From IMG/VR virus record IMGVR_UViG_3300032268_001078, positions 1-64,000 of that record: a stretch of DNA of 64,000 nucleotides. One strand, written 5' to 3'. Below, one piece after another: positions 1 to 44,289 of the stretch (position 1 is the first letter of the stretch; the number at the start of each line of letters is the position of its first letter). Position numbers and translations under genes: made by a program. The notes beneath the pieces are model-generated. The model was not told the DNA's origin. It saw only the letters and a list, made by a program, of their open reading frames with translations, and did not search any database. The stretch is from a virus.

Positions 1-96
1 TAGTGGATCAGTTGGTTTTACTTCAACTGGGTTGAGTTTGTTTAATAGTGTTTGTAACTGTGTTACTTCTTCCTGTGTTAAATTTTCTATTTTCAT
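1..96 (-). CDS. hypothetical protein, N-terminal part (runs off the window)
   Basis: The reading frame opens with ATG at 96 and stays open to the window edge, giving MKIENLTQEEVTQLQTLL and continuing for 32 codons. The start has the AAAAGTTATG context seen at many genes here, and a promoter-like element lies just upstream. The visible part looks like a short acidic helical protein. No function can be assigned. Confidence 0.7.
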   Translation of the reverse strand, partial: MKIENLTQEEVTQLQTLLNKLNPVEVKPTDPL

Positions 97-106
97 AACT
101 TTTTCT

Positions 107-142
107 TATACTTATTACACAAAATCTTTTATAAAAAACCCC
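107..142 (-). promoter_or_regulatory. recurrent intergenic promoter-like element (GGGG...TTTTGTGTAATA type)
   Basis: Read on the minus strand: GGGG, a TTTT-A-TAAAA core, then TTTTGTGTAATAAG. About 14 near copies lie between genes in the first 28 kb, always in the sense direction. The TTTG part resembles the end of the Bacteroidota -7 box (TAnnTTTG). Promoter activity is inferred. Confidence 0.55.
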
Positions 143-143
143 T

Positions 144-278
144 TTAAAGGTCCCAATCATAAATAATTTGTCCATTTTGATTTATTTTAAGTTTTTTATT
201 TGTTTTTAGTTTTATTAAATACTCAATTATGAGTTTTGATTCAACAGAAATTATACATTCTATATTATAAAGTGTCAT
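144..278 (-). CDS. micro-gene array 1, member 16 (44 aa)
   Basis: Last gene of the array. Starts MTLYNIECIISVESK and ends IIYDWDL. Its ATG overlaps the stop of the previous gene (ATGA). The tail is a weak version of the array's aromatic-Leu-Asp-Leu ending. Lys/Ile rich; function unknown. Confidence 0.6.
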   Translation of the reverse strand: MTLYNIECIISVESKLIIEYLIKLKTNKKLKINQNGQIIYDWDL

Positions 279-394
279 AAATCTAAATATTTCATTAATC
301 GATAATACTTCTCACTATTGAATTCTTTACGTAGTCCAATAATAACACCTACTTCATGTTTCCACAACATAAATTCCATATTAATTGGTTTCAT
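275..394 (-). CDS. micro-gene array 1, member 15 (39 aa)
   Basis: Starts MKPINMEFMLWKHEV and ends RLMKYLDL. Both ends overlap neighbours by ATGA. Carries the canonical YLDL tail. Function unknown. Confidence 0.65.
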   Translation of the reverse strand: MKPINMEFMLWKHEVGVIIGLRKEFNSEKYYRLMKYLDL

Positions 395-540
395 AAGTCT
401 AATAAATTAATTATTTCATTTACCATTGCATCTGTGTATTTTTTGTTTTTAGCATAATTGAGTTTTACCCATAATGAATAACCCATTGAGTTGTGAGGTA
501 TTACTTGCATCCATCTTGCTTTAATTTCAGTTAACCACAT
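391..540 (-). CDS. micro-gene array 1, member 14 (49 aa)
   Basis: Starts MWLTEIKARWMQVIP and ends EIINLLDL. The start lies 14 nt inside the preceding gene, a longer overlap than the usual 4 nt. LLDL is a variant of the array tail. Function unknown. Confidence 0.6.
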   Translation of the reverse strand: MWLTEIKARWMQVIPHNSMGYSLWVKLNYAKNKKYTDAMVNEIINLLDL

Positions 541-706
541 CTAAATCTAAAAACTTAAATAAATCTTCATTTATATTTTTTTCTATTTCATAAAACAAAT
601 CATTGTTATCAACATCCACATATAAAAAATACATTTCTATGTATAGATAATTAGCGTAGTCTTTAACAACATCGTCTATTGTCCATTCAATTACTCTTCT
701 TATCAT
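527..706 (-). CDS. micro-gene array 1, member 13 (59 aa)
   Basis: Starts MIRRVIEWTIDDVVKDYANY and ends FKFLDLDVVN. The KDYANY stretch is close to HDYANYDYMNVY in the next gene upstream (703-879), so the two look like duplicates. The FLDL motif is followed by four extra residues. Acidic; function unknown. Confidence 0.65.
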   Translation of the reverse strand: MIRRVIEWTIDDVVKDYANYLYIEMYFLYVDVDNNDLFYEIEKNINEDLFKFLDLDVVN

Positions 707-879
707 ATGTTTAAATCTAAAAAATAATACAAATCTTCACTTTTATTTTTTGAATCTTTATTAAATAATCCACCCGTACTAACATCACCAAACCCATATC
801 TTAAATATACATTCATATAATCATAGTTTGCATAGTCGTGTATACTATCTTTCATACTCCATTTATAATTCCATTTCAT
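703..879 (-). CDS. micro-gene array 1, member 12 (58 aa)
   Basis: Starts MKWNYKWSMKDSIHDYANYD and ends YYFLDLNI. Paralogue of the 527-706 product by the shared DYANY core. ATGA overlaps at both ends. Function unknown. Confidence 0.65.
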   Translation of the reverse strand: MKWNYKWSMKDSIHDYANYDYMNVYLRYGFGDVSTGGLFNKDSKNKSEDLYYFLDLNI

Positions 880-1004
880 AAGTACAAATAATTTACTAAT
901 ACTTTTATTTTATGTTTAATTGGGTAATCAACAAAAAAATCATACATTACATATAACTCATATTTAGATTTAGTCATATCTTCTATTTGTTCTTTAGTCA
1001 TCAT
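876..1004 (-). CDS. micro-gene array 1, member 11 (42 aa)
   Basis: Starts MMTKEQIEDMTKSKYELYVM and ends VLVNYLYL. It has the N-terminal pattern I-x-D-M/I-A/T-x-x-x-Y/F shared with several neighbours. YLYL replaces YLDL. Function unknown. Confidence 0.65.
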   Translation of the reverse strand: MMTKEQIEDMTKSKYELYVMYDFFVDYPIKHKIKVLVNYLYL

Positions 1005-1141
1005 AAGTACAAATAATTACACATTACAATATTTCTTACTAAATAAATTCCATGATAATAATTATCATTAAAATGGCTATAAATACCTATTGGTGGGTAT
1101 TTTACATAAGCCATATCATATACTTTACTGTATTCCATCAT
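1001..1141 (-). CDS. micro-gene array 1, member 10 (46 aa)
   Basis: Starts MMEYSKVYDMAYVKYPPIGI and ends MCNYLYL. It shares the D-M-A-x-x-x-Y core and has a YLYL tail like the next gene, so these two are probably sister copies. Function unknown. Confidence 0.65.
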   Translation of the reverse strand: MMEYSKVYDMAYVKYPPIGIYSHFNDNYYHGIYLVRNIVMCNYLYL

Positions 1142-1275
1142 AAGTCTAAATAAGTTATTATTATGTTTGTAAATATTCCATGATGTTTTTTGTATTTGTT
1201 TTTATAGTAAATTAAATTACCTATATTATAATCCCATTTACTCATTAAATTTATATTATTCTTTTTATTCATCAT
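1138..1275 (-). CDS. micro-gene array 1, member 9 (45 aa)
   Basis: Starts MMNKKNNINLMSKWDYNIG and ends IIITYLDL. Basic and Asn/Tyr rich, with the canonical YLDL tail and ATGA overlaps. Function unknown. Confidence 0.65.
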   Translation of the reverse strand: MMNKKNNINLMSKWDYNIGNLIYYKNKYKKHHGIFTNIIITYLDL

Positions 1276-1421
1276 ATATCTAAATAATCTAATAAATCAT
1301 CAATGTATTGTGGTTTATTTATAATTGTTTTTTTATAACGTATAATATGTTGTATACTATTTATAACATAATGTGTTTTATAATCATAAAGTCTTCTTAA
1401 CATTAAATCTCGATTTGTCAT
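1272..1421 (-). CDS. micro-gene array 1, member 8 (49 aa)
   Basis: Starts MTNRDLMLRRLYDYKTHYVI and ends DDLLDYLDI. Its N-terminus resembles array-2 products that start MTRDYYSMLRI and MTREYRMMLRI, which links the two arrays. Function unknown. Confidence 0.65.
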   Translation of the reverse strand: MTNRDLMLRRLYDYKTHYVINSIQHIIRYKKTIINKPQYIDDLLDYLDI

Positions 1422-1549
1422 AAGTCTAAATAATATACTGTTGAGTATATATAGTCGGTGTAATATTTACGTGTTTTTTGAATGTGAATTAATACACTAC
1501 AATAAAACTCATCATATGCTATATCTTCTATCTGTAATTCATTCATCAT
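1418..1549 (-). CDS. micro-gene array 1, member 7 (43 aa)
   Basis: Starts MMNELQIEDIAYDEFYCSVL and ends STVYYLDL. It has the I-E-D-I-A-x-x-x-F core and YLDL tail. ATGA overlaps at both ends. Function unknown. Confidence 0.65.
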   Translation of the reverse strand: MMNELQIEDIAYDEFYCSVLIHIQKTRKYYTDYIYSTVYYLDL

Positions 1550-1677
1550 AAGTCTAAATAATCTATTAATTCAATATGTTTTAACCGAATATCAAACCAA
1601 TTCATAACATTAATAGTTGTTGTAAAACCATATTTGTGATGTGCCATACTACTTATTTTAAATGGAACAATTTTCAT
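1546..1677 (-). CDS. micro-gene array 1, member 6 (43 aa)
   Basis: Starts MKIVPFKISSMAHHKYGFTT and ends ELIDYLDL. It has an S-M-A-x-x-x-Y core. The last 15 nt (TATTTAGACTTATGA) are identical to those of several other members. Function unknown. Confidence 0.65.
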   Translation of the reverse strand: MKIVPFKISSMAHHKYGFTTTINVMNWFDIRLKHIELIDYLDL

Positions 1678-1802
1678 AAGTCTAAATAATTTGAAAAGTA
1701 TGTTTGTATTTCATAATAATTTGGTTCTTTTGATATTTTCAATAATATTTTTACATTATACTCATAACTTGATATAATATATATTGAATATTTTCCTGTC
1801 AT
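1674..1802 (-). CDS. micro-gene array 1, member 5 (42 aa)
   Basis: Starts MTGKYSIYIISSYEYNVKIL and ends YFSNYLDL. Canonical tail and coupling. The S-S-Y-E-Y-N-V stretch matches the aromatic core of other members. Function unknown. Confidence 0.65.
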   Translation of the reverse strand: MTGKYSIYIISSYEYNVKILLKISKEPNYYEIQTYFSNYLDL

Positions 1803-1960
1803 ATGTCTAAATATACTGATAAATTATGAATAAGCCATTCTACATTTTGACCACCTAAATTAAATGCTTGAGCATGATCAGTATAATGACGATACACACT
1901 ACTTAAAAGTAATGCAGGTCTGTGTCTGTTTGCTATTGATGTTAATTTATTTTCATTCAT
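1799..1960 (-). CDS. micro-gene array 1, member 4 (53 aa)
   Basis: Starts MNENKLTSIANRHRPALLLS and ends LSVYLDI. A second ATG four nt downstream leads to an immediate stop, so the start at 1960 is preferred. His/Arg richer than its neighbours. Function unknown. Confidence 0.65.
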   Translation of the reverse strand: MNENKLTSIANRHRPALLLSSVYRHYTDHAQAFNLGGQNVEWLIHNLSVYLDI

Positions 1961-2088
1961 AAGTCTAAATAATCTATTAATCTATAATATGAATAATCAA
2001 ATCCCTCACTAAAATCTCTACACATTCCAGCAATACTATTCATTTTATACTCATATTTTGCCATATCCGATACTGTAATGCGATTCAT
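1957..2088 (-). CDS. micro-gene array 1, member 3 (43 aa)
   Basis: Starts MNRITVSDMAKYEYKMNSIA and ends RLIDYLDL. It is the clearest example of the family core S/E-D-M-A-x-x-E-Y-x-x and YLDL tail. Function unknown. Confidence 0.65.
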   Translation of the reverse strand: MNRITVSDMAKYEYKMNSIAGMCRDFSEGFDYSYYRLIDYLDL

Positions 2089-2252
2089 TATATGTCTAAA
2101 TATATTATCATATCACTTACAAAATATTTACGACTTTTATTATAAGTGGGATATTCTTTGTCTTGAAAAGAACTAAATACTTTGTTTATTACAAACACAC
2201 TGTGTTTGTGTGTACCAATGTATTCTATTCTTTCAATTATATTAAATTTCAT
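2088..2252 (-). CDS. micro-gene array 1, member 2 (54 aa)
   Basis: Starts MKFNIIERIEYIGTHKHSVF and ends MIIYLDI. Its TAA overlaps the next ATG as TAATG, another tight coupling. Basic middle section. Function unknown. Confidence 0.65.
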   Translation of the reverse strand: MKFNIIERIEYIGTHKHSVFVINKVFSSFQDKEYPTYNKSRKYFVSDMIIYLDI

Positions 2253-2359
2253 ATATCAAACCACTCACCTAAACTATTTCTATTAAAATACTTAAATTTC
2301 AAAAAACCATGTGATATATACTCCATGTTTTTGTATGTTGCTATTTGAAACCAACTCAT
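2249..2359 (-). CDS. micro-gene array 1, member 1 (36 aa)
   Basis: First micro-gene. Starts MSWFQIATYKNMEYISHGF and ends GEWFDI. Its ATG overlaps the TAA of the 85-aa gene upstream (TAATG), so the array appears to be co-translated with that gene. Function unknown. Confidence 0.6.
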   Translation of the reverse strand: MSWFQIATYKNMEYISHGFLKFKYFNRNSLGEWFDI

Positions 2360-4100: not shown

Positions 4101-4133
4101 ACTTATTACACAAAATAATTTTTAAAATCCCCC
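4101..4133 (-). promoter_or_regulatory. promoter-like element (GGGG...TTTTGTGTAATA type)
   Basis: Minus-strand GGGGGATTTTAAAAATTATT then TTTTGTGTAATAAGT and ATG. Here the element abuts the start codon of the basic 45-aa gene almost directly. Confidence 0.5.
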
Positions 4134-5224: not shown

Positions 5225-6397
5225 TTATTTCAAAATATATGTAGCTAAATCTTTGTCTAACAACATCATTTGATATTTCTTTTGGTCTGCATTGTAAATG
5301 CCTTTAACCATATTAAAACAAATATCTGTAGTGAATATGTCTGATTTTACTACTGCTTTGATTCGTTCAATTATTGACTTTTCTACTTTATTTTCTTTAG
5401 AGTATTTGTCTAAGTAGTTAACAAAACGTGTACTAATAGTACTTGCGATATCAGCTCTGTATTTTTCTTTAGTTCCAATTATTTCCTTCAATGTTTTAAG
5501 TACATACTCTTCATTTGATTCAATAATTGATTGTGGTGAAATAATTTTGTCTAATTTGTTATTAATAAACATTGTAAACATACTACTAAATTCACTACCA
5601 ACACTACCTTCACCAATCATTTGGATCAATGGCAAACTATCTTCAAACGATTTAATTGAACTGATTGAATTAAAGAACATAACTGCACTACGACTATTTA
5701 CTTCTTTATTAATTAGTTCTGGATTCATCAACATAAAGTTAATACAACGACCATCAATATTACTATTCTCAGCCCATTTAGACCAGCAATCCATATCGAA
5801 TTTTAATTGTACACTAATGAAACGTGTTTTCTGTGCATTATCAATAGTATTAACTAAATAATCACCATTATCCGGGTTAGCAGTTAATATGATATGCCAA
5901 TCTTTAGGTAATGTCCAACTGATATACTGTTGTCTATCAATTAATTCCATTACAGCTTGAATAAATCTTGTATCAGCTCTGTTCCAGTCATCTAATAACA
6001 AAATTCCGCCTTGTTCTTTGTTTGCAATCCACTCAGGTGGGCAATAACTCATTCGGTTCAATCCAGTTGTTTTAAAACCTTCAGTTCTAGTGTCTTCTAA
6101 TGCTGACTCATCAACATACTTTGTTGTTGTTCCATCAGTAACTTCGAATTGACGAATTGGAAAACCAACTAAATCACCAATTTCTTCAATTTGAGCTAAG
6201 TTCAACTTAACAAAGTTCAAACCTAATTCATCAGCTAACTGAATGATACTTGACGTTTTACCAATTCCCGATTCACCAATTACTTCAATTGATACAGGAC
6301 CTTTACCGTTGTCTTGTAAGTGACGGTTGTTTGAGATTATATGTCCCAAAAACTCTTTTAACTCACTCTGATTGATCGATACTAATTCTTTTTTCAT
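5225..6397 (-). CDS. MoxR-type AAA+ ATPase (390 aa)
   Basis: AAA+ core: Walker A GESGIGKTSS at about residues 41-50, Walker B GGILLLDDWNRAD at about 131-143, sensor ILTANPDNGDY at about 170. The remodelling ATPases of the MoxR class normally pair with a von Willebrand A (VWA) domain protein. A suitable partner lies at 11753-13105. The pair may remodel or insert a cofactor into a target complex; the target is unknown. The start at 6397 has the AAAAGTTATG context, and the upstream promoter-like element supports a separate transcript. Confidence 0.8.
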   Translation of the reverse strand: MKKELVSINQSELKEFLGHIISNNRHLQDNGKGPVSIEVIGESGIGKTSSIIQLADELGLNFVKLNLAQIEEIGDLVGFPIRQFEVTDGTTTKYVDESALEDTRTEGFKTTGLNRMSYCPPEWIANKEQGGILLLDDWNRADTRFIQAVMELIDRQQYISWTLPKDWHIILTANPDNGDYLVNTIDNAQKTRFISVQLKFDMDCWSKWAENSNIDGRCINFMLMNPELINKEVNSRSAVMFFNSISSIKSFEDSLPLIQMIGEGSVGSEFSSMFTMFINNKLDKIISPQSIIESNEEYVLKTLKEIIGTKEKYRADIASTISTRFVNYLDKYSKENKVEKSIIERIKAVVKSDIFTTDICFNMVKGIYNADQKKYQMMLLDKDLATYILK

Positions 6398-6433: not shown

Positions 6434-6465
6434 TGTATTACACAAAATTTTTTATAAAATCCCCC
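6434..6465 (-). promoter_or_regulatory. promoter-like element (GGGG...TTTTGTGTAATA type)
   Basis: Minus-strand GGGGGATTTTATAAAAAA then TTTTGTGTAATACAATA, 37 nt before the MoxR start. One of the closest matches to the consensus. Confidence 0.55.
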
Positions 6466-6481: not shown

Positions 6482-7096
6482 TTAAAAAATTTTATTTGAT
6501 TTTTTTATATTTTCTAAATGCCACATTGGTTGGAGATTAGTGTAATTATTTAATAAATACACATCTTCTTCTGTTTTAGCAGAACTAATAGGTATGATAT
6601 GGTCAATACTCCAACACCCAGGTTTATTACCATAATTATCCCAATTCATACCTTTAGTAAATTGAGATTCAATGTGTTTTCTTAATTCATCCCAACTACC
6701 TAACCCAACAATATTTAATGTTGCTTTACTTTTATTTGTTCCAATTTGCTTTAAACGTTCATTTATTCTACTTCTAATAGAATGATGTAACTTTACTTTA
6801 TTATCTTGTCTTCTTTTTTTCTGATGAAGTTTTGCTATTTCATTTATTTTATCTTGATTATCAATTCTATATTGTTTTTGATAATCATCATGTTTTTCTT
6901 TATTATTAGAAACCCAGTTAGATATACATTTATTAACTTTATCTCTATTATTTTCAGCCCATGATTTATCTTTTTTTGCTTTACAAGATTTACAATAAGA
7001 ATTCAATCCATCCTTTTTATGTTTATCTTTATTAAATTCAGCAATTGATTTTGTCTGTTTACATTTAATACAGACTTTAGTCATATTTATACCCAT
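6482..7096 (-). CDS. HNH homing endonuclease with N-terminal zinc-binding motif
   Basis: Four cysteines (CIKC at about residue 9 and CKSC at about 36) form an N-terminal zinc-binding unit. A long basic linker of Asn/Lys-rich repeats follows. The HNH nuclease motif is WSIDHIIPISSAK with a downstream TNLQPMWHLENIKKSNK. The same layout recurs at 23572 and 49492. Such genes are mobile and cut DNA at specific sites to spread. A second in-frame ATG at 7084 (MTKVC) could be the true start. An ATATTTATTA element and a hairpin precede it. Confidence 0.85.
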   Translation of the reverse strand: MGINMTKVCIKCKQTKSIAEFNKDKHKKDGLNSYCKSCKAKKDKSWAENNRDKVNKCISNWVSNNKEKHDDYQKQYRIDNQDKINEIAKLHQKKRRQDNKVKLHHSIRSRINERLKQIGTNKSKATLNIVGLGSWDELRKHIESQFTKGMNWDNYGNKPGCWSIDHIIPISSAKTEEDVYLLNNYTNLQPMWHLENIKKSNKIF

Positions 7097-10999: not shown

Positions 11000-11740
11000 T
11001 TATTTGCATTTCCAAATAAATTTATTAGCTGATTTTGATTTTCCTTTTAAACACATACTGATTCCACCATGATTTGTTCCTGTTTGTCTAGAAGCTTCTG
11101 CTCCTGATGGCCACTCTTTAATAAATTTACCATTAATATCATATTGTTGTACTGGTGTACTATTTTTATCTCCTATTTTCTTTCCACGTTCTGGATCTTT
11201 ATAACATATATGTCCTATTTTTTTGTTTGTTATTTTATTACCCCACTCATGTTTTGCTTCTTTAGTCATATTATTATGATTTTCACTTATTTTAGCACCC
11301 CATTGTTCTTTTTCTTCTCTGGTCATGTTAGCGTGACCAATACTGATGTTATTACTTATTTCTTGTCTTTGTTCATCAGTCATTGATTGTTTAGCTTTTT
11401 TTATACCTACAGACATTTTATCTTTAGTATGTTGTTCTCTAGGTCCACCCCCACTATCATATAAACCTAAAAATAATACTTTATTCCAATCACCATCCAC
11501 TTGATCTAAATAGTACTGTTTCCAGTGTGTTTCTCTTTCGTCTAATAATTCAACACTACATTCTTCAATTATTTCAAAATTATGTTTATCCCATCCATAT
11601 TTGTTTAATGAGTTAAATATTTTTACTTGCTTTTTAACAGCGTTTATGTTTATGTAATGTTTTTTTCTTTCATTAATATCAAGAGATTGGCCTATATATA
11701 CCTTACCGCTTGGTGATGTTATTTTATATATGCCAATCAT
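11000..11740 (-). CDS. GIY-YIG homing endonuclease with NUMOD repeats and IENR1-type DNA-binding end (246 aa)
   Basis: The catalytic GIY-YIG domain is at residues 1-90 (IGIYKITSPSGKVYIGQS, then KYGWDKHNFEIIEE and ERETHWKQYYL). Several short repeats in the centre (AKQSMTDEQRQEIS, NMTREEKEQWG, NMTKEAKHEWG) are typical nuclease-associated modules. The end (VQQYDINGKFIKEWPSGAEA ... GISMCLKGKSKSA) is an IENR1-like helix-turn-helix. An ATATTTAT element is 6 nt before the start. A mobile gene, likely inserted after the VWA gene. Confidence 0.9.
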   Translation of the reverse strand: MIGIYKITSPSGKVYIGQSLDINERKKHYININAVKKQVKIFNSLNKYGWDKHNFEIIEECSVELLDERETHWKQYYLDQVDGDWNKVLFLGLYDSGGGPREQHTKDKMSVGIKKAKQSMTDEQRQEISNNISIGHANMTREEKEQWGAKISENHNNMTKEAKHEWGNKITNKKIGHICYKDPERGKKIGDKNSTPVQQYDINGKFIKEWPSGAEASRQTGTNHGGISMCLKGKSKSANKFIWKCK

Positions 11741-14390: not shown

Positions 14391-14423
14391 AATATTACAC
14401 AAAATCTTTTTTTAAAAACCCCT
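14391..14423 (-). promoter_or_regulatory. promoter-like element (GGGG...TTTTGTGTAATA type)
   Basis: Minus-strand GGGGTTTTTAAAAAAAGA then TTTTGTGTAATATTATAT, 13 nt before the start of the 123-aa gene. Confidence 0.55.
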
Positions 14424-17900: not shown

Positions 17901-18068
17901 TTAATAAAGTTCATAGTAATTTAATAACATTCTAAATGTTGATTCATCTATCTTCGTTTTTTTAGCAGTATCTATAAACTCAATAATTCGACCTATAGGG
18001 CGGATATAAGCATCGTTACTATAATTTTTTATATCATGAATGAATTCTTTAATATCTTTTTCTACCAT
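17901..18068 (-). CDS. micro-gene array 2, member 10 (55 aa)
   Basis: Starts MVEKDIKEFIHDIKNYSNDA and ends LNYYELY. The YYEL tail is shared with three more members. It precedes the AAA+ gene by 11 nt. Function unknown. Confidence 0.6.
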   Translation of the reverse strand: MVEKDIKEFIHDIKNYSNDAYIRPIGRIIEFIDTAKKTKIDESTFRMLLNYYELY

Positions 18069-18073
18069 ATTTT

Positions 18074-18244
18074 TTAAAGTTCATAATAATGAAGTATTTC
18101 CTCTAATTCAATGATTTTGGTGGATTGTTGTTGGTATTTACTAATTTTGTTTATATTAAAAATAATACTACGTACATTACTAATATACGTGCCATTAGTA
18201 TAATACCTCATATCTGTACATTTTTGGTAAAAATTATAGTTCAT
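18074..18244 (-). CDS. micro-gene array 2, member 9 (56 aa)
   Basis: Starts MNYNFYQKCTDMRYYTNGTY and ends ILHYYEL. The N-Y-(I/N)-x-(V/F) start and N-(R/G)-(Y/T)-Y-I core match the next gene upstream. Function unknown. Confidence 0.6.
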   Translation of the reverse strand: MNYNFYQKCTDMRYYTNGTYISNVRSIIFNINKISKYQQQSTKIIELEEILHYYEL

Positions 18245-18392
18245 AATAGTCTAATATCCAATCATAATTTATTTGTGGTGAGTCGCTATTTTTGATAGCA
18301 TCTATTGATTCAATAATATTATTTATATGTTCGATGTAAATATACCTGTTGTATTTTACTATTTGTTGTATTTGTACTTCAATATAGTTCAT
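18234..18392 (-). CDS. micro-gene array 2, member 8 (52 aa)
   Basis: Starts MNYIEVQIQQIVKYNRYIYI and ends ILDYYEL. Close paralogue of the two neighbours by the YYEL tail and a -YN-x-x-YI- core. Function unknown. Confidence 0.6.
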   Translation of the reverse strand: MNYIEVQIQQIVKYNRYIYIEHINNIIESIDAIKNSDSPQINYDWILDYYEL

Positions 18393-18531
18393 AATAATCT
18401 AATAAATCATCAACAGCATCCTTATCTTTGTCTTGTTTAATATCATTTATTAAATCAATAACATTATGTCTAAATTTGATATAAACATCATTGTTGTATT
18501 CTAATATATCTAATATTTCATATATAGTCAT
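18379..18531 (-). CDS. micro-gene array 2, member 7 (50 aa)
   Basis: Starts MTIYEILDILEYNNDVYIKF and ends LLDYYELY. The EYNND-VYI core aligns with KYNRYIYI of the next gene. Function unknown. Confidence 0.6.
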   Translation of the reverse strand: MTIYEILDILEYNNDVYIKFRHNVIDLINDIKQDKDKDAVDDLLDYYELY

Positions 18532-18674
18532 AATACTAATCTATTTGATAATAGAGTTAAATAAAATCTATAACCACGAACTACATCAGATGGAGTGAAA
18601 TTTTTTAGATGTTCTACATGATCATTTTGATGTAATCTTACTATTCTTAACATCATACGGTATTCTCTAGTCAT
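18528..18674 (-). CDS. micro-gene array 2, member 6 (48 aa)
   Basis: Starts MTREYRMMLRIVRLHQNDHV and ends LSNRLVL. The first 11 residues nearly match the next member (MTRDYYSMLRI), indicating tandem duplication. ATGA overlaps. Function unknown. Confidence 0.6.
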   Translation of the reverse strand: MTREYRMMLRIVRLHQNDHVEHLKNFTPSDVVRGYRFYLTLLSNRLVL

Positions 18675-18823
18675 AATTGTAACCTTAATACTAATCCGTT
18701 TAAATAAGTTTTTAAATCACAATCTAAATCATATGGATAATAGTTTATCATATAATTCAAGTAATAGTTATTGTCTTGATAACAATTTAATATTCTTAAC
18801 ATTGAATAATAGTCTCTAGTCAT
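18671..18823 (-). CDS. micro-gene array 2, member 5 (50 aa)
   Basis: Starts MTRDYYSMLRILNCYQDNNY and ends VLRLQL. Paralogue of member 6 and similar to array-1 member 8 (MTNRDLMLRRLYDY). Function unknown. Confidence 0.6.
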   Translation of the reverse strand: MTRDYYSMLRILNCYQDNNYYLNYMINYYPYDLDCDLKTYLNGLVLRLQL

Positions 18824-18957
18824 ATTCTCATCCAAATTTTTATCCAAGTGTTTATATCTGACGATTTACGATTGAAAGGACATATTATTTCATGTGAACG
18901 TTCTACAAGTTTGTTTACTGTACATTTGTGAATATATGATTCCATCCTATATTTCAT
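18820..18957 (-). CDS. micro-gene array 2, member 4 (45 aa)
   Basis: Starts MKYRMESYIHKCTVNKLVER and ends KIWMRI. Basic. Coupled by ATGA on both sides. Function unknown. Confidence 0.55.
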   Translation of the reverse strand: MKYRMESYIHKCTVNKLVERSHEIICPFNRKSSDINTWIKIWMRI

Positions 18958-19127
18958 AATATAAATCTACTTATTAATGCGGTATTCATTTGACCACTGA
19001 GTGTTATACCATTTGTTAATGCGTTTCTCCACATAACAATTTCTATAATATTCTTATATCCTATTCCATAAGTAGAACAACATTTCATTTTAATCATATT
19101 ATGATATTTTAAGTTGTAGTCTGTCAT
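18954..19127 (-). CDS. micro-gene array 2, member 3 (57 aa)
   Basis: Starts MTDYNLKYHNMIKMKCCSTY and ends ALISRFIL. Coupled by overlap on both sides. Function unknown. Confidence 0.55.
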   Translation of the reverse strand: MTDYNLKYHNMIKMKCCSTYGIGYKNIIEIVMWRNALTNGITLSGQMNTALISRFIL

Positions 19128-19291
19128 TATAGTTCCATTACATCACGTAAACTCGCATTAGCACTATTTGACATAATAATAAATCTTCTATTATCTATAA
19201 TATTTCTAACTCTCATCATTCTAAAATGATTTGCTTGAAATGAAAAACTAGCCAACCTTACTATATAAAGTGTCGTATTATGTTTACCCAT
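19127..19291 (-). CDS. micro-gene array 2, member 2 (54 aa)
   Basis: Starts MGKHNTTLYIVRLASFSFQA and ends LRDVMEL. TAATG overlap with the next gene. Function unknown. Confidence 0.55.
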   Translation of the reverse strand: MGKHNTTLYIVRLASFSFQANHFRMMRVRNIIDNRRFIIMSNSANASLRDVMEL

Positions 19292-19431
19292 TATTTTACC
19301 ACAAACACTCTTAATCTAAATAATAAATGGTCTTTAACATTAAACATACTAATATTTGGATTTACTAAATAAATATAATATTCAGTAAAATCTGTATATG
19401 CCATTATTCTAGCATTAAAACTATTCAGCAT
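19291..19431 (-). CDS. micro-gene array 2, member 1 (46 aa)
   Basis: Starts MLNSFNARIMAYTDFTEYYI and ends VFVVK. The R-I-M-A-Y-x-x-F core resembles the D-M-A-x-x-x-Y core of array 1. Its ATG overlaps the stop of the duplicated 80-aa gene. Function unknown. Confidence 0.55.
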   Translation of the reverse strand: MLNSFNARIMAYTDFTEYYIYLVNPNISMFNVKDHLLFRLRVFVVK

Positions 19432-19673
19432 CATCTCCTTTGTATTTTATCACGCATCCATTTTGCACCGTCAATAAATTGTCCATCACAAAAATCATCA
19501 AATGCCTTTTTACCTATCTCCTCATCACTTGGTAGTTCGATAAGGGTAGTCGGTTCGAGAGATGCAATAAATTCTATCATTTCTATATTGAATGGTGCTC
19601 TATCTTCTTTGTGACAGACCCCAAATCCAAAAGCAATTGCTTTAATTAAATCTTCTTCTGTGTATAGTTTCAT
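19431..19673 (-). CDS. hypothetical protein, copy B of a duplicated pair (80 aa)
   Basis: Almost the same protein as 8316-8573. It lacks the small internal duplication and carries a few changes (EPTTLIEL for KPTKNIEL, DGQF for DEQF). It heads micro-gene array 2 and has the AAAAGTTATG start context. Copies 11 kb apart with this similarity imply recent duplication or gene conversion. Confidence 0.75.
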   Translation of the reverse strand: MKLYTEEDLIKAIAFGFGVCHKEDRAPFNIEMIEFIASLEPTTLIELPSDEEIGKKAFDDFCDGQFIDGAKWMRDKIQRR

Positions 19674-19982: not shown

Positions 19983-20258
19983 TTACAACTTAATTAAACC
20001 GTTAGACATAAGACCTTTATAAAAGTCCAAAATACTTCTCATTGTTTCAGTAGGCAATTCACTCAAATTACTTACACTACTATTAGCTAGTTGATCTAAA
20101 TAATCTAAAGTTTGTTTGTCACTAGTATCACAATTTACTAGCAATGCAATTCCTAAATTCACAGACGACTCATCTTTAGATGTAATCATACCTTTTAATG
20201 TTTCAAATGACTCCGCGTCTAATTGATGTACATTTTGATTTTTAACTAATTCTTCCAT
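19983..20258 (-). CDS. hypothetical protein with the ETL-GM-NLGI helical module (91 aa)
   Basis: Residues 15-45 (AESFETLKGMITSKDESSVN then LGIALL) closely match residues about 210-245 of the 336-aa protein at 9037-10047. This protein is essentially the module plus a short helical extension. The role is unknown; the module may bind a common partner. Confidence 0.7.
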   Translation of the reverse strand: MEELVKNQNVHQLDAESFETLKGMITSKDESSVNLGIALLVNCDTSDKQTLDYLDQLANSSVSNLSELPTETMRSILDFYKGLMSNGLIKL

Positions 20259-20302: not shown

Positions 20303-20344
20303 TTTTTATACTTATTTCACAAAATCTTTTATAAAATTCCCCTC
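20303..20344 (-). promoter_or_regulatory. promoter-like element overlapping the 3' end of the 75-aa gene
   Basis: Minus-strand GGGGAATTTTATAAAAGA then TTTTGTGAAATAAGTATAAA. The core is a perfect consensus match but lies inside the last codons (GNFIKDFVK) of the 20312-20539 gene rather than after its stop. Confidence 0.55.
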
Positions 20345-20539
20345 TTTTCTTAATTCTCTTAAATCTTCTAAATCAAACCTACTTACTAGTTCATCTAACT
20401 GATATCTTTTTTCAAAACATGTAGGTTTACTAATAATTTTATCAGTAGTAATATAGTATTCTAATACAGCACTACAAACACCACAATACCATTTACTTAC
20501 GTGGTATCCTATTATTTCATCTTTTGAAAAACACGACAT
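20312..20539 (-). CDS. micro-gene family member with LDE...DLEDL motif (75 aa)
   Basis: Starts MSCFSKDEIIGYHVSKWYCG. The stretch YQLDELVSRFDLEDL matches YWLDEVICSMDLENL (20575) and FWLDEMCIYLDLEEL (20762). Two CxxC-like Cys may bind metal. Its last nine residues are encoded by a promoter-like element. Function unknown. Confidence 0.65.
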   Translation of the reverse strand: MSCFSKDEIIGYHVSKWYCGVCSAVLEYYITTDKIISKPTCFEKRYQLDELVSRFDLEDLRELRKEGNFIKDFVK

Positions 20540-20540
20540 A

Positions 20541-20573
20541 TTATATTACACAAAACCTTTTTTTTAAAACCCT
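20541..20573 (-). promoter_or_regulatory. promoter-like element (variant GGG...TTTTGTGTAATA)
   Basis: Minus-strand GGGTTTTAAAAAAAAAGG then TTTTGTGTAATATAATATG, with ATG of the 75-aa gene at the end. Confidence 0.5.
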
Positions 20574-20574
20574 T

Positions 20575-20778
20575 TTATCTCATTTTAAATAAATTTTCTA
20601 AATCCATAGAACAAATTACTTCATCTAACCAATACATACAAGGATCATTTTTAAAATCAACAATATCATTTTTAATAGTGTAAAAAATATCAAAATCAAT
20701 ATATTCCTTTTCATCAAGATAAATATACCATTTGTCTCTATAGTATTCCATCATTTCTTCTTTAGTGTATGCTGCCAT
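20575..20778 (-). CDS. micro-gene family member with LDE...DLENL motif (67 aa)
   Basis: Starts MAAYTKEEMMEYYRDKWYIY and ends MDLENLFKMR. The N-terminal x-(K)-(D/E)-E-(I/M)-(I/M)-x-Y-x-x-x-K-W-Y pattern also matches the 75-aa gene. Overlaps its upstream neighbour by 17 nt. Function unknown. Confidence 0.65.
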   Translation of the reverse strand: MAAYTKEEMMEYYRDKWYIYLDEKEYIDFDIFYTIKNDIVDFKNDPCMYWLDEVICSMDLENLFKMR

Positions 20779-20941
20779 TTTCTAATTCCTCTAAATCTAA
20801 ATAAATACACATTTCATCTAACCAAAAATTACATCTATCATCTAAAAAACTATTTATGTCTTCTGTTAATTTTAAAATATCATTGTATTTATCAGTTGCT
20901 TGATAATCAATTATCGTTTTTTTAATATTGGATATCATCAT
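20762..20941 (-). CDS. micro-gene array 3, member 7 (59 aa)
   Basis: Starts MMISNIKKTIIDYQATDKYN and ends YLDLEELENGSIH. Carries the FWLDEMCIYLDLEEL version of the family motif. Function unknown. Confidence 0.6.
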   Translation of the reverse strand: MMISNIKKTIIDYQATDKYNDILKLTEDINSFLDDRCNFWLDEMCIYLDLEELENGSIH

Positions 20942-21114
20942 AATAAATTGTCTAAGTCTAAGTCTCTAACTGCTGAATTAAGTGCGAATTCGTTCATTGA
21001 GTAACTGTATCTTGGATGATGAATTTTATACATAAACCAAATTATTTGTCCAATATAATGATCATTACCTGCGACTTGACTCATAATAATTATTGCCTTA
21101 TTATTATCTTCCAT
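20938..21114 (-). CDS. micro-gene array 3, member 6 (58 aa)
   Basis: Starts MEDNNKAIIIMSQVAGNDHY and ends VRDLDLDNLL. Coupled by overlap on both sides. Function unknown. Confidence 0.6.
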   Translation of the reverse strand: MEDNNKAIIIMSQVAGNDHYIGQIIWFMYKIHHPRYSYSMNEFALNSAVRDLDLDNLL

Positions 21115-21280
21115 TTATGTATATAGGCGTTTTAATCTCATCTAAGCCAAAATAGTTTAAAAACATAGGTGATCTGTATCTTGATTTGTTCCACATATCT
21201 ACTACTGATAGTATTTCTTTTATATTGTATCCTCTTCTTGAATAAAACTCTATAAATGATGTTATTTCAAAATTTTTCAT
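21104..21280 (-). CDS. micro-gene array 3, member 5 (58 aa)
   Basis: Starts MKNFEITSFIEFYSRRGYNI and contains LNYFGLDEIKTP, a diverged form of the L-D-x-x tail. Function unknown. Confidence 0.55.
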   Translation of the reverse strand: MKNFEITSFIEFYSRRGYNIKEILSVVDMWNKSRYRSPMFLNYFGLDEIKTPIYINGR

Positions 21281-21281
21281 C

Positions 21282-21461
21282 TTAATTTTTATACTTTCCT
21301 ATTCTTACCTCATCTTCAAATTCTTCTAAGTCTAAATATTCTTCCACCATATCCACATAACTCTCAACATCTAAATAAAGTCTACGATATTTTAGTACTT
21401 TTTGCATATTATATGCAAAATGTGCATGGTCTTTAATTAAAAATTCTCTAAGTACTTTCAT
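21282..21461 (-). CDS. micro-gene array 3, member 4 (59 aa)
   Basis: Starts MKVLREFLIKDHAHFAYNMQ, contains VEEYLDLEEFEDE and ends RIGKYKN. KDHAHFAYNM resembles VKDHKYFILWL of the next gene upstream. Function unknown. Confidence 0.6.
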   Translation of the reverse strand: MKVLREFLIKDHAHFAYNMQKVLKYRRLYLDVESYVDMVEEYLDLEEFEDEVRIGKYKN

Positions 21462-21649
21462 AATAGTTTATCTAAATCTAAATAGGACGATGCTCTACGT
21501 TGAAATGTTTTTATTGTATCTGTACTACACGAAGTAGGAGTTGATTGTTTGTAAACATCTAATAACCACAGTATAAAATACTTATGGTCTTTCACTGTGT
21601 CTTCCATACGCATTTTACGTATACCTAAATCTATTGGTTTTTGTCTCAT
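21458..21649 (-). CDS. micro-gene array 3, member 3 (63 aa)
   Basis: Starts MRQKPIDLGIRKMRMEDTVK and ends ASSYLDLDKLL. YLDLDKL is the array-3 form of the tail. ATGA overlaps on both sides. Function unknown. Confidence 0.65.
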   Translation of the reverse strand: MRQKPIDLGIRKMRMEDTVKDHKYFILWLLDVYKQSTPTSCSTDTIKTFQRRASSYLDLDKLL

Positions 21650-21843
21650 AGTGGTTCTAAGTCTAACATAGCTTCACATCTATTTATGTACTTCAATGTG
21701 GTTACAATAGTACTTTCTCCTTTAGAAAACTGTATACCTCTCACAAGTAAAAGAAAATATTTTACATAATTACCATTTATTGTTTGACCATCTTGTAGTC
21801 TAACCATATTTCCAATCAACTCAGTTTTTTCGATGTACATCAT
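21646..21843 (-). CDS. micro-gene array 3, member 2 (65 aa)
   Basis: Starts MMYIEKTELIGNMVRLQDGQ, ends CEAMLDLEPL. The N-V-K-Y-F-L-L-L-V stretch aligns with K-Y-F-I-L-W-L-L of the next gene. Function unknown. Confidence 0.65.
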   Translation of the reverse strand: MMYIEKTELIGNMVRLQDGQTINGNYVKYFLLLVRGIQFSKGESTIVTTLKYINRCEAMLDLEPL

Positions 21844-21860
21844 TGAAATTTTATTTTATC

Positions 21861-22055
21861 TTATGCAAAATGTAAATCTAATTTATGATATGGATTAACG
21901 TGTCTAATAGCAACTCTATTAGGCATACTTAGTTTAGGTGAATTTTCTACTTTTATAACATAAAGTTCTTCATCCATTACTACTAAGTCTTTAATAGTAA
22001 ACAAATCAGTTACATATGTTTCTATAAAGTAGGGTTCGTATTCTCTTGGTTCCAT
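21861..22055 (-). CDS. hypothetical protein heading micro-gene array 3 (64 aa)
   Basis: Starts MEPREYEPYFIETYVTDLFT, strand-rich (IKDLVVMDEELYVIKVENS), ends HKLDLHFA. Its start lies inside the 3' end of the metallophosphoesterase gene (34-nt overlap). Function unknown. Confidence 0.6.
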   Translation of the reverse strand: MEPREYEPYFIETYVTDLFTIKDLVVMDEELYVIKVENSPKLSMPNRVAIRHVNPYHKLDLHFA

Positions 22056-23571: not shown

Positions 23572-24315
23572 TTAATTTAATTTATTTCTAAATTCTTCTT
23601 TAAGATATTCTATACTTAGAATATAATATTCCTCATCAACCTTATCAGCCCATTTGTTATTTTTGGTTTTATTGTATATAGGTTCCACAGGTTGGAGATT
23701 TCTCAAATCACTAACAATATGAGGAGGTGTATTTTCACTAAACCATGTTACTGGTATTTTGTGGTCTATTTCATGGTTAAACCAATCCATACCTTGTTTG
23801 TCTAAATGTTCTTTTAGTTGTAATGCTGAATATCCTAGCATCAATGTAGTAGAATTTTCTTTATTTTTTCCTAATCTTTTAAGAGTATTTTCTAGCAATA
23901 TTCTCCATTTTACTATATGTTTATTGTTTTCTCTATATTGTGTTTGGTTTAAATTTCTTTTTTTTCTTCTTGTTTCTTTTGTTTTATTAAAATAATCTTT
24001 TTGATAATCTTTCATATAATTAGGATTACTTTGATTCCATTTTTGAATATTATCTTTAACTCTTTCTTTATTATTTAAATACCATTCTTTTGTTTTTTGA
24101 GCAATTATATCTTTATTATTTTCTCTGTATTTAATATTACTTTGTTTATTTTTTTCTAAATTATTTAATTTCCATTTTTTAGAAGCAGCTAATATACAAC
24201 TTTTGCACCAAAATGTTAAACCATCTTTTGTAGTTTTTCTTTTATTAAATTCAGTAATTGATTTTTCTTGTTTACAATTTGTATTACTACAAGTCTTAGT
24301 CATATTTATATTCAT
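23572..24315 (-). CDS. HNH homing endonuclease with N-terminal zinc motif (247 aa)
   Basis: Same plan as the 6482 gene: N-terminal Cys sites (CSNTNC, CKSC), an Asn/Lys-rich linker, then HEIDHKIPVTWFSE and SDLRNLQPVEPIYNKTKNNKW. The upstream sequence (ATATTTATTAT ... ATATAAATATGACTAA) is also closely related, suggesting the two genes and their leaders descend from one mobile unit. MTKTC at 24303 is an alternative start. Confidence 0.85.
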   Translation of the reverse strand: MNINMTKTCSNTNCKQEKSITEFNKRKTTKDGLTFWCKSCILAASKKWKLNNLEKNKQSNIKYRENNKDIIAQKTKEWYLNNKERVKDNIQKWNQSNPNYMKDYQKDYFNKTKETRRKKRNLNQTQYRENNKHIVKWRILLENTLKRLGKNKENSTTLMLGYSALQLKEHLDKQGMDWFNHEIDHKIPVTWFSENTPPHIVSDLRNLQPVEPIYNKTKNNKWADKVDEEYYILSIEYLKEEFRNKLN

Positions 24316-26615: not shown

Positions 26616-26650
26616 ATAATATTACACAAAATCTTTTATAAAATTCCCCT
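26616..26650 (-). promoter_or_regulatory. promoter-like element, best consensus match
   Basis: Minus-strand GGGGAATTTTATAAAAGA then TTTTGTGTAATATTATATG. It precedes the 95-aa gene, ligase and UV endonuclease, which could form one transcript. Confidence 0.6.
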
Positions 26651-30079: not shown

Positions 30080-31345
30080 TTAATAAATATGATAAAGATC
30101 TTGTTCTTTAATAGTTGGATTTACTACTATGATTTTACTAGAACTAATATCTTCTAATTTATTTACTGTAATTTTAAATATATCATATTCATAATTACCT
30201 TCTTCGTCTATTGATGTTGAAATAATATCTTGTAAGTTAATAAGAAAACTACTAAAATTGTTATGATTGATTTTACTTATATCAAACTCAACAACAATAT
30301 CATCTTCTACTTCATCAACAAATTGTGGTAGCTCTTGTCTAAACATATAACTGTATTTATTCCAATCTTCATTTGTTATGTTATATAATTCATTGGCAAC
30401 ATTATGTTGTTTATTTAAATTATCTAAAAATGGTATTACTAGTCCAATTGGTGCTGATATTTTATTAAAACACATTTGAACTGAATCAAATATGTCTAAA
30501 CTATTTGTTCCTGTAATTTTGGCTGATATGTTATAATATTTTATTTTGTCAGTTGAATGATTAAATTTACCCCACTTTTTAATAAATCTAGACATTTCAA
30601 TACTATCAGCTTGTTGTTGTAACTGTACTCTCAATTGTGCTTCTTTATTATTTTTATCAAACCAATTTTTACCTCTACTTGATGTACAAGTAAAATGATA
30701 AACTAATGCTTCCCATGTTTGAATAATTTGAGTATCATTCAATACTAAACGAGTCAATACATCACTGTCTTCTCTAGACCGTCTAAATTGAGTATCGTGA
30801 CCACCTATTGAATTCCAAGTTTGTTTATATAAAGTAAATGGGGCAAAGAAATAATTAGTTTCTGTGTTTTTCTTTAGAGTTTGCGCGTAATTTGTGAATG
30901 CCTCTAAGTCAAACGTGTTTGGGTCCAAACCAAAATCGGCTGTGTGTTTTTCGCCACTAGATGGATGAAGTGGTGGTTCAATTCTAGTTGAACATAAAAT
31001 CATATTCGGTTCAACATGTTTAAGTACTTCTAAATCATAGTCCTTACATACAACCATGTCTGATTGTAAGTAAGAAACTATTTCATTAGTAGCTTGAAGA
31101 AACATTTCATTAATATTTCTTTGATAACCATAAGGAATAGGTAAATGATTTTTAAGTATTTTTAGGTTATTAAATACTTGTTTTTGAGTCATTAACCATT
31201 CAAATGTGTTTTCATTGTCACTATCAATAAACACTAGTACTTCGTGAGTTAGTGTAGATAAGTTTTGTTCTAATGATTTAAATAATAGTTTTAAATTATC
31301 TAATTCATTACGTGACGTATTAATGCAAAACGTTAAATTTTTCAT
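30080..31345 (-). CDS. family 2-like glycosyltransferase (421 aa)
   Basis: The GT-A fold start LTFCINTSRNELDNLKLLFK, acceptor-side YGYQRNINEMFLQATNEIVS and the metal-binding SYLQSDMVVCKDYD (QSD/DxD position) are visible. Later GGHDTQFRRSREDSDVLTRL resembles the C-terminal part of the GT2 catalytic core. The remainder (residues about 240-421) is unassigned. Last gene of the glycan operon; its start lies 26 nt inside the gene upstream. Confidence 0.75.
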   Translation of the reverse strand: MKNLTFCINTSRNELDNLKLLFKSLEQNLSTLTHEVLVFIDSDNENTFEWLMTQKQVFNNLKILKNHLPIPYGYQRNINEMFLQATNEIVSYLQSDMVVCKDYDLEVLKHVEPNMILCSTRIEPPLHPSSGEKHTADFGLDPNTFDLEAFTNYAQTLKKNTETNYFFAPFTLYKQTWNSIGGHDTQFRRSREDSDVLTRLVLNDTQIIQTWEALVYHFTCTSSRGKNWFDKNNKEAQLRVQLQQQADSIEMSRFIKKWGKFNHSTDKIKYYNISAKITGTNSLDIFDSVQMCFNKISAPIGLVIPFLDNLNKQHNVANELYNITNEDWNKYSYMFRQELPQFVDEVEDDIVVEFDISKINHNNFSSFLINLQDIISTSIDEEGNYEYDIFKITVNKLEDISSSKIIVVNPTIKEQDLYHIY

Positions 31346-32141
31346 ATGTTTCTTTAATTCCTTGTTTTAAACCAATTAAATCAATTTTAAGTACTTCTAA
31401 TGGCATTTTACTACCAAAATAAGCATAATCATTGTCTTTACCTACTTTTACTTCTACTTTATGAGTGTCTAAACTATTAATAATATCAGCAATTTCACTT
31501 AACATCAATGTATTTTCATAAGTACAATCAAGTGTTTTAGGTAAGTTTTTATTTGTTAAATAGTATTTTATCACTTCAATAAAGTCTTTCATATAAAAGA
31601 AATCCATTAAACGATCTTTATGAACTGACATTGGTTCGTTATTGATATAGCGTTGAATGTTTGATTTAATAAATCTTGTGTCTAACTCATTTTCATCAAA
31701 TACAGCAAATACTCTAATATTATAAAAATTTTCTTCTTGTTCTACTAGTTTACTGATGATACTTTTACTCATTCCATATGGGTCTGTAGGAAATCGTTTT
31801 CCATCTTCAGTCCATATAGGTGCTATGTTTTGACTTCTGTCAAACTCAGCTCCAGAAGCAATGTTTATTAGTTTATTAAAGCGACTTTTGTTTCTTAGTA
31901 AGTTATAAAACATTTGTAGATTCTGATGAGTCACATTTGCTCCGTCAGCTTGTGTTCTTGATCCACCTGTTGTTGCACAATGAATTACTACATCAAATCG
32001 TTTGTCTTTGAACCATTCATCTACTTTTGTTTGATTTGTTAAATCTACTACATCACGAGTTAACTTAACTGTGTTGTATGGTAATTGTTTACAAATTGTT
32101 GAACCAATATAACCATTTGCTCCTGTAACTAGAATTTTCAT
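31320..32141 (-). CDS. NAD(P)-dependent sugar epimerase/reductase, SDR family (273 aa)
   Basis: Rossmann start MKILVTGANGYIGSTI (TGxxGxxG), catalytic YGMSK (YxxxK), with SGAEFDRS before it. Shorter than a full 4,6-dehydratase and lacking its Asp-Glu pair, so probably a 4-ketoreductase or epimerase acting on a nucleotide sugar. Start at 32141 (TAATATG with the gene upstream) rather than 32174. Confidence 0.8.
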   Translation of the reverse strand: MKILVTGANGYIGSTICKQLPYNTVKLTRDVVDLTNQTKVDEWFKDKRFDVVIHCATTGGSRTQADGANVTHQNLQMFYNLLRNKSRFNKLINIASGAEFDRSQNIAPIWTEDGKRFPTDPYGMSKSIISKLVEQEENFYNIRVFAVFDENELDTRFIKSNIQRYINNEPMSVHKDRLMDFFYMKDFIEVIKYYLTNKNLPKTLDCTYENTLMLSEIADIINSLDTHKVEVKVGKDNDYAYFGSKMPLEVLKIDLIGLKQGIKETYEKFNVLH

Positions 32142-32142
32142 A

Positions 32143-32679
32143 TTATTTTTCTTTTGCGAAATCTCCAAACTCAACTAAAATTGTACTTCTACCATCTGTT
32201 CTATTCAATGCTTTTTCATAAGCAGGAACAATGTCTTCTGGTTTGTGAAGTTCAATTACTTCTATTGTTTTACACATAGATCTAAAAGCATCACTAAAAT
32301 TTCCTTTATGTTGATCTTGGGGATCTACTGGTCTTTCACTACCTACTGCTACTCTAATGATTACTTTAGGAGTACATCTTCCATCAGACATTAATGGATA
32401 TTTATCTAAGTGATTTACTATTTGATCAGTTCCCATCAATAAAAAATTCCAACGTGGAATCACAGATACAGGAATCCAACCTTGAATAGCTAATCCATTT
32501 ACTACTCCACTTTGTAGATACTCAGCTACAGGAAATTCCATTCTTTTTTCTGATGGGATATGTTCCAATGTATCATATAATCCCGTTCCAGCAAATTCAA
32601 CGGCTTGACCTATAAAGATAACCTTTTCGTTTTCAGCTAAAAGAGACATTGCTCTTTGTAATTCTTCAAAATATTTCAT
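32143..32679 (-). CDS. thiamine-diphosphate enzyme, E1-beta/transketolase pyrimidine-binding subunit (178 aa)
   Basis: The fold and key stretch RMEFPVAEYLQSGVVNGLAI match the pyrimidine-binding half of E1-beta/transketolase, with the conserved Glu that activates thiamine diphosphate. VIIRVAVGSERP and a helix at the end complete the domain. The third, C-terminal transketolase domain is absent. It pairs with the 217-aa subunit encoded next to it. In sugar pathways such split enzymes can add a two-carbon unit. Confidence 0.8.
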   Translation of the reverse strand: MKYFEELQRAMSLLAENEKVIFIGQAVEFAGTGLYDTLEHIPSEKRMEFPVAEYLQSGVVNGLAIQGWIPVSVIPRWNFLLMGTDQIVNHLDKYPLMSDGRCTPKVIIRVAVGSERPVDPQDQHKGNFSDAFRSMCKTIEVIELHKPEDIVPAYEKALNRTDGRSTILVEFGDFAKEK

Positions 32680-32683
32680 AAAA

Positions 32684-33337
32684 TTAAAATTGAACTCTCA
32701 TACCAGCACCTGCGTGAGGGTATTTTGTGTTTTTATATTGGTAATACATTAAATTAGGTTGAGTGTAAATTTCTTTATTTTCCATTTTTTGTTTCCACAT
32801 TTCTTTATCATCTATAAAATATGGAATTGTTCTTTTCCAAATATCATTAGTAGGTGTTAATACTGATAACTCATTACTTTCTACTACAAATGTTATTGGT
32901 AATTCACTATTTCTAGCATACTTATATGCTTCATGGAAATGACCCGTTTCAGCAGACATATCACCGACAAAACACCAAACGTGATTATTAGTACCTGCTA
33001 ATTTTTCACCTAAAGCTAATCCTGTAGCTATAGATGGAATACCACCAACAATTGAACTACAAATAAATTTATACTCAGGCATCGTTTGTACCATAGATTT
33101 ACCTTTAAGAATTTCAGCTTCTAAAATATCTGCTGGAATGCCTTTTAATAAGGCTTGGTAATGATTTCTCCACGTGCAACAAATCCAATCATTTGTATTA
33201 TCTACTTGTTCAAAGATTTCTATCATCTTTTCTTCATTATTATGATAAAGATGAATAGGTGCTTTGATGTGTTTTTGATTGAATAATTCACCAATTCTGG
33301 TTTCAAATTCTATTAGTTGTTCTTTATTCATTACCAT
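32684..33337 (-). CDS. thiamine-diphosphate enzyme, E1-alpha/pyrophosphate-binding subunit (217 aa)
   Basis: The ThDP-binding motif is CFVGDMSAETGHFHEAYKYA ... VVESNEL (GD-x~26-N), preceded by SSIVGGIPSIATGLALGEKL as in E1-alpha/transketolase. Much shorter than pyruvate dehydrogenase E1-alpha (about 360 aa). Four bases separate it from the beta subunit gene, so the two probably form a heterodimer or heterotetramer. The donor may be pyruvate or a ketose; this is inference. Confidence 0.8.
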   Translation of the reverse strand: MVMNKEQLIEFETRIGELFNQKHIKAPIHLYHNNEEKMIEIFEQVDNTNDWICCTWRNHYQALLKGIPADILEAEILKGKSMVQTMPEYKFICSSIVGGIPSIATGLALGEKLAGTNNHVWCFVGDMSAETGHFHEAYKYARNSELPITFVVESNELSVLTPTNDIWKRTIPYFIDDKEMWKQKMENKEIYTQPNLMYYQYKNTKYPHAGAGMRVQF

Positions 33338-34281: not shown

Positions 34282-34284
34282 ATT

Positions 34285-34953
34285 CTATTTATATAAATTT
34301 TCATCATAACTTACAGCGGTTAAAAAATCATCATATACATTAAATACACTTTTATATTTTGATTCATTATTTGATCCTATCCAAAATTCACATTTGTGTC
34401 TCACATCATAAATTACAGGTAACATTTGTGGATCTTGTAATGTATTAATATGACTAGCTCTAGCCCACCAGAAATTATTAGAATAGTGTCTCACTGGATT
34501 GTAAATAAGTTCTGCTCCACATACATCAAATTCTTCTAACCATTTTAAACTGTCTTTGTATTTAGTAATATTCCAATATGATTGATATTTTCTAATATCC
34601 TCAATATATTTAAATTCTTTAACATATTTACTACTACTTGAACCTTTAGTATGTAAATATAAAATATTATCGTTTGGATTATTTTTACAATGTTCTATTA
34701 TTTTATATAAAGTTGGAAATTCCCACTGATATATATCTTCACCATTATAATTTAATTTACCTTTAGGTACATCAAATTTTATATTAGGGTCTCCAATTAA
34801 TTCTAGATTAATTTGATCAACATCTTCATATAATTTAGAATCAAGTATATTTTTAGAAATTTCATCAATTATAGATTGACATCTATCTTCATTAGGGGTA
34901 CCAAATTTATCTATAATTAAATTACCCGCGTGTATAAATACTACATTTCCCAT
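34285..34953 (-). CDS. glycosyltransferase-like protein with YLHTKG motif (222 aa)
   Basis: ILYLHTKGSSSSKYVKEFKY, then WLEEFDVCGAELIYNPVRHY and FWWARASHINTL, form a pattern found in small putative transferases in surface-polysaccharide clusters. Position in the operon supports this. No experimentally defined family can be claimed from sequence alone. Confidence 0.65.
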   Translation of the reverse strand: MGNVVFIHAGNLIIDKFGTPNEDRCQSIIDEISKNILDSKLYEDVDQINLELIGDPNIKFDVPKGKLNYNGEDIYQWEFPTLYKIIEHCKNNPNDNILYLHTKGSSSSKYVKEFKYIEDIRKYQSYWNITKYKDSLKWLEEFDVCGAELIYNPVRHYSNNFWWARASHINTLQDPQMLPVIYDVRHKCEFWIGSNNESKYKSVFNVYDDFLTAVSYDENLYK

Positions 34954-34954
34954 A

Positions 34955-44286: not shown

Positions 44287-44289
44287 AAC

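Follow-up and report, generated by a model that had tools for sequence, protein, structure and literature searches.

Short overlapping reading frames are easily dismissed as chance, and a dense run of them near the start of IMG/VR virus record IMGVR_UViG_3300032268_001078 raises the question of whether they are genes and, if so, what kind of gene family they form. The window analysed here is the first 64 kb (positions 1 to 64,000) of this 179,715-base record and has a G+C content of 29%. The initial annotation described 16 consecutive ORFs of 36-59 aa on the minus strand at 144-2359 (array A), and all are present exactly as claimed, most ending in (Y/F/L)L(D/Y)(L/I). As it also claimed, nearly all junctions are of the ATGA or TAATG type: 13 of the 15 are 4-nt overlaps at ATGA, one is a 1-nt overlap at TAATG, and one is a 14-nt overlap. 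The array is apparent from direct ORF reading, from shuffled sequence (a maximum chain of 4 ORFs in 3000 dinucleotide-preserving shuffles vs the 16 observed) and from a syntenic array in a sister phage; its antisense strand has a chain length of 1. Codon usage favours the proposed frame in 13/16 units, with a preference weaker than that of long genes. The operon probably starts upstream, near 2885, adding three small minus-strand ORFs (2359-2855): first a 36-aa probable membrane protein (2745-2855), then at the head of the operon a 41-aa probable membrane protein (2618-2743), both with orthologs in the sister phage, and just upstream of the array an 85-aa gene (2359-2616) of the same presumed operon that shares 1 nt with the first array unit and is conserved in the sister phage, G001 and L119-L121.

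The initial annotation recognized this one array. Array A is real, but a scan of the whole record revealed two further arrays that had been missed, both inside the window, and arrays A, B and C together hold about 35 micro-genes. Array B (20312-21843, minus strand) comprises 8 small ORFs of 58-75 aa with an LDL(D/E)xL-type motif near their C-termini, mostly not at them. Its last ORF (20312-20539) is set apart by a promoter-like sequence at 20544-20555, and a like-sized ORF upstream (21861-22055) may be a ninth unit. Array C (17901-19434, minus strand) comprises 10 overlapping or abutting micro-genes of 45-57 aa, four of which end in YYEL(Y). The LDL motif is common to arrays A and B, and profile comparison of the two produced a match (E 5e-05, probability 67%) that leans on the tail; array C showed no significant similarity to array A in the same type of comparison.

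Using neighbouring conserved genes as anchors, we located a sister phage in two contigs of one metagenome, IMGVR_UViG_3300009180_000041 (G010/L107/L114) and _000080 (L123), likely both from one genome and mostly 75-92% identical to the window phage where DNA is shared. All three arrays occur at the same places in the sister, with the same flanks and with every unit intact, and the unit numbers of window phage and sister are 16 vs 8 for array A, 9 vs 3 for array B and 10 vs 9 for array C. Sister array A (L114:2458-3545) has the same flanking genes as in the window. Clear sister orthologs exist for the units at 2249-2359, 2088-2252, 1001-1141, 876-1004 and 527-706; seven units of the window are replaced by two others in the sister, which carries an additional unit towards the front and lacks both the unit at 703-879 and the window's last three. 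In sister array C (9 units, L123:8842-10202) one inner unit is missing, one is new and the last is absent. No truncated units were seen in either phage. Gain and loss of units between the two phages is well supported, and two of the features by which a gene accordion can be recognized, whole-unit copy-number differences between close relatives and short direct repeats at unit boundaries, are found here, the first between the window phage and its sister.

The host is probably a member of the Bacteroidota, given that the window encodes three sigma-like proteins, what we take to be a clamp-loader-type ATPase (48605-49495) and one secreted protein whose end is presumably of the kind typical of type IX secretion substrates. 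We give about an even chance to the reading that the three tandem arrays, in the accessory region of a T4-like Bacteroidota phage, form an accordion-like, fast-diverging micro-gene family with a putative inhibitory function. The broader claim of a tandemly amplified paralogous gene family with a common tail is supported.

The sister arrays bear directly on coding status. Among 12 ortholog pairs of equal length, none contains an internal stop, whereas placing the same substitutions randomly broke a mean of 8.0 of the 12 pairs and at least 3 in each of 2000 trials; ortholog pairs of unequal length stay in register over their whole length. As neutrality predicts 8 broken pairs where none was found, the array ORFs appear to be real genes, a conclusion that this comparison supports well and that we judge all but established. 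The initial annotation had looked to related phages for intact frames and purifying selection, and the first expectation was borne out by the lack of stops or frame loss in the sister, but purifying selection is weak and the strong amino acid constraint predicted for the core was not found (dN/dS about 0.75). Pooled dN/dS amounts to 0.78 for array A, 0.74 for array B and 0.73 for array C, and the intervals of this comparison with a single sister genome span 1; five conserved genes of the same region have values of 0.05-0.20. The 85-aa gene at 2359-2616, beside but outside array A, evolves equally loosely (dN/dS 0.74). Frames that are kept while residues change fast could reflect diversifying selection or weak constraint, and fast protein change is as expected in a virus-host arms race.

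These rates also suit the strongest competing explanation, that the genes are translated but under relaxed constraint, being duplicates that accumulate in an accessory region prone to recombination and drift there, each having hardly any function of its own or none. Besides the dN/dS near 0.75, array substitutions are spread about equally over the three codon positions, and other relatives are without the arrays, which indicates that these are dispensable in the clade. Against free drift, every unit is open in both phages where 8/12 pairs would be expected to break, and the tail residues of array A are better kept than the remainder (17/20 of the last four residues of orthologs identical vs 127/217 elsewhere). 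Unused DNA also tends to be lost from compact phage genomes. We consider relaxed constraint rather unlikely, though it is the foremost competitor of the accordion-like family.

The arrangement of paralogs bears on how such an accordion might work. Closest paralogs are often neighbours, with z = 14.8 for 527-706 with 703-879, z = 13.3 for sister units 3 and 4, and further neighbouring pairs in array B (z = 8.4) and array C (z = 8.3); permutation of closest-paralog adjacency gave p values of 0.005 and 0.009 in two arrays and 0.07-0.09 in three. One sister unit, a single case chosen by eye, looks chimeric just downstream of its junction: its first 20 nt match the upstream neighbour at 19/20 positions and the ortholog at 11/20, and the rest matches the ortholog at 89/109. 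The repeated junction DNA reported initially was confirmed in array A, where there are 5 exact copies of the 15-mer TATTTAGACTTATGA and 6 of the 12-mer TTAGACTTATGA; identical 12-15 nt repeats mark 5-6 of the 15 sites and most other sites are similar. Given 12-15 nt of identity, recombination between any two of the junctions that share it would be predicted to add or remove whole genes and leave the frames undisturbed.

The junctions coincide with the shared tail, which had been claimed for at least 12 units and indeed ends 12/16 array A units in the form (Y/F/L/I)L(D/Y)(L/I). In the ORFs at 527-706 and 703-879 a further 4 and 2 residues, respectively, come after FLDL, ORF 2249-2359 ends in WFDI and ORF 144-278 in DWDL. 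The N-terminal core likewise exists, although not in every unit: once the tails were removed, unsupervised motif discovery recovered, around residue 7 of roughly half the sequences, the motif [IV]x[DS][MIY][AT]xx[EK][YF], with a score of 110.7 vs 77.0 +/- 3.3 (maximum 85.8) over 40 shuffles.

The tail could be mostly a by-product of DNA, the junction being kept as the start signal of the next gene or as a recombination repeat and the YLDL residues merely following. GAC or TAC makes up 11/14 of the penultimate codons vs 19/110 codons in the body of array A (p = 7e-6), and this bias, with the 12-15 nt sequences repeated exactly at five or six junctions, marks the tail as a DNA feature. However, the LDL of array B lies as many as 20 codons ahead of the stop, with no start codon nearby, the terminal array A unit ends in DWDL with other codons and no gene after it, and identical DNA could also remain from recent copying alone. 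Together with the better-kept last four residues, the first two of these observations mark the tail as a protein feature as well; it looks like both, and we regard a mere by-product as distinctly unlikely. Still less probable, and in our view very unlikely, is a T4-type sliding-clamp docking motif. The ATPase at 48605-49495, identified by reading of the sequence as of clamp-loader type, would fit a clamp in this phage, but the C-terminal motif is not shared with the phage's own polymerase (66078-68675), which ends in ERFFSF, or with its sigma-like proteins, and membership of the T4-type clamp-binding proteins is not supported. The likeness lies in the composition and C-terminal position of the clamp-binding motif (PMC2988020). 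That array A is one long repeat protein read by a -1 frameshift at each TTATGA junction is scarcely credible, as the same -1 relation holds at 13/15 junctions but the TAATG and 14-nt-overlap junctions would need a different shift, every unit starts with ATG, and inspection by eye revealed no slippery heptamer.

A candidate promoter, recognized by sequence recurrence, lies upstream of the array A operon on the minus strand (core TTTTGTGTAATA, 2874-2885). The core follows GGGG and a T/A-rich stretch, and the element heads gene runs in the accessory region only; here it precedes a 19-gene run ending at 144, and the next copy (113-124) comes after array A. Further copies in the window are at 4104-4115, 6436-6447, 14393-14404, 20544-20555 and 26620-26631, with more at 175-179.7 kb of the record. 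The sequence TTGTGTAATA has 18 minus-strand copies in the record, all within 175-179.7 kb or 1-28 kb, limits that were set after seeing the matches. These two stretches are continuous according to the sister contig L114, which spans both ends of the record (window 1-138; record 178915-179101). The genome is thus probably circularly permuted and array A presumably does not lie at a real genome end.

Under the accordion-like reading, recombination between the short identical stop/start junction repeats would add or remove exact whole genes, preserving the upstream C-terminus and the downstream start, and the copies would diverge afterwards. Expression would be from a single polycistronic mRNA starting at the promoter-like element near 2880, with translation handed from gene to gene via stop-start coupling at ATGA. 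Translation in Bacteroidota does not depend on Shine-Dalgarno pairing (PMC6847099), which makes such coupling a reasonable candidate route. Each product is predicted to be a small protein, chiefly of helices, with a variable part that would bind and inhibit a particular host or defence factor, and the common C-terminal helix and YLDL-type tail may have a joint role such as folding, pairing or docking. That the variable parts bind differing host or defence targets is by itself a tentative step, suggested by analogy with small phage proteins that inhibit host factors, to which we give somewhat less than even weight. A host-takeover role, as first proposed, is plausible for these candidate proteins; nothing favours the decoy role proposed alongside it. 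Possible, but rather unlikely, is a built-in diversification device in which the junction is start context, coding tail and in-register recombination repeat at once. If true, the device would let the phage expand, delete and shuffle small inhibitors without frame breakage, as a standing library against changing defences. The junction design points to a simple means by which a virus could adjust its number of genes exactly.

The libraries and papers searched are in agreement with the opinion that no described system has such a design, but tandem amplification of a small phage gene is an evolutionary mode known from phage T4, which amplifies tifA by recombination at 6-10 bp repeats (PMC9391042), shorter than the 12-15 nt junction repeats here. 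The dmd-tifA case (PMC9391042; SegB-driven, PMC13096335) is similar in that a small anti-defence gene is amplified in tandem at short repeats. It differs in that the T4 copies are identical, laboratory-arisen and of known target, whereas the present arrays are long-standing and diverged, have overlapping stop/start junctions and would act on putative targets. The poxvirus K3L gene accordion (as in PMC9391042) shares the arms-race route in which copy number rises and one copy then changes, but it concerns a eukaryotic virus and transient, near-identical copies, unlike the lasting, diverged arrays here. Tandem amplification of small phage genes is thus already known; what is unusual here is the number, packing, divergence and junction design. 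To our knowledge, the genes of the host-takeover module of phage SPO1 are not one paralogous family with a common tail. That module, a 26-gene cluster (PMC6873191), resembles the arrays in being a dense group of small genes with presumed effects on the host. The roughly 35 unannotated, fast-diverging micro-genes of the window are a natural candidate set of host inhibitors or anti-defence proteins, and such genes are easily overlooked, being small, overlapping and divergent.

Similarity searches returned little. The alignment of the 16 sequences had no stretch of sufficient conservation for searching public collections, and the sister aside, about 50 related viral records held no convincing match. 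There was no convincing match in Pfam or PHROGs (the best single weak ones, E 0.0045-0.09, involved one member each), no match to PDB sequences or in Rfam, and no match for one unit to isolated phages (tblastn) or to bacterial and archaeal genomes. Predicted structures, of modest confidence (pLDDT 67 and 72), consist of a long helix and a short one; for these Foldseek found nothing in PDB and a best E of 3.1 in BFVD. A two-junction DNA pattern had no match in IMG/VR outside its own record, though this pattern would miss most sister junctions. Arrays were found in none of 80 relatives anchored by the ATPase gene at 5225-6397 and in none of the further records anchored by the 85-aa neighbour gene. 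Families A, B and C, sought in about 45 related records each (one search without a positive control in the set), occurred in the sister phage only, and family A was not found in nine large relatives with a working control. Such arrays are also missing from four other large relatives; G003 has a single chain of 4 small, unrelated ORFs. In the next relative, G001, there is a tandem array of about five small ORFs (L098:18895-19573) of an unrelated family (motif IxxMxxYxxWN...F...W..YxWL(Y/F)), with no significant similarity to array A by profile comparison (as array D). It adjoins the counterpart of the gene at 19983-20258, near the site of arrays B and C, hinting that this site favours small-ORF arrays.

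Several other genes of the window were noted by reading of the sequence. HNH- and GIY-YIG-like endonuclease genes (6482-7096, 11000-11740, 23572-24315, 47668-48327 and 49492-50058) lie among the arrays and conserved genes; in T-even phages, homing endonucleases can drive tandem amplification (PMC13096335). A large block of glycosyltransferase and nucleotide-sugar-type genes, unusually big for a phage, occupies 30080-45735, and a GroEL-like chaperonin gene of 537 aa is located at 61141-62754.
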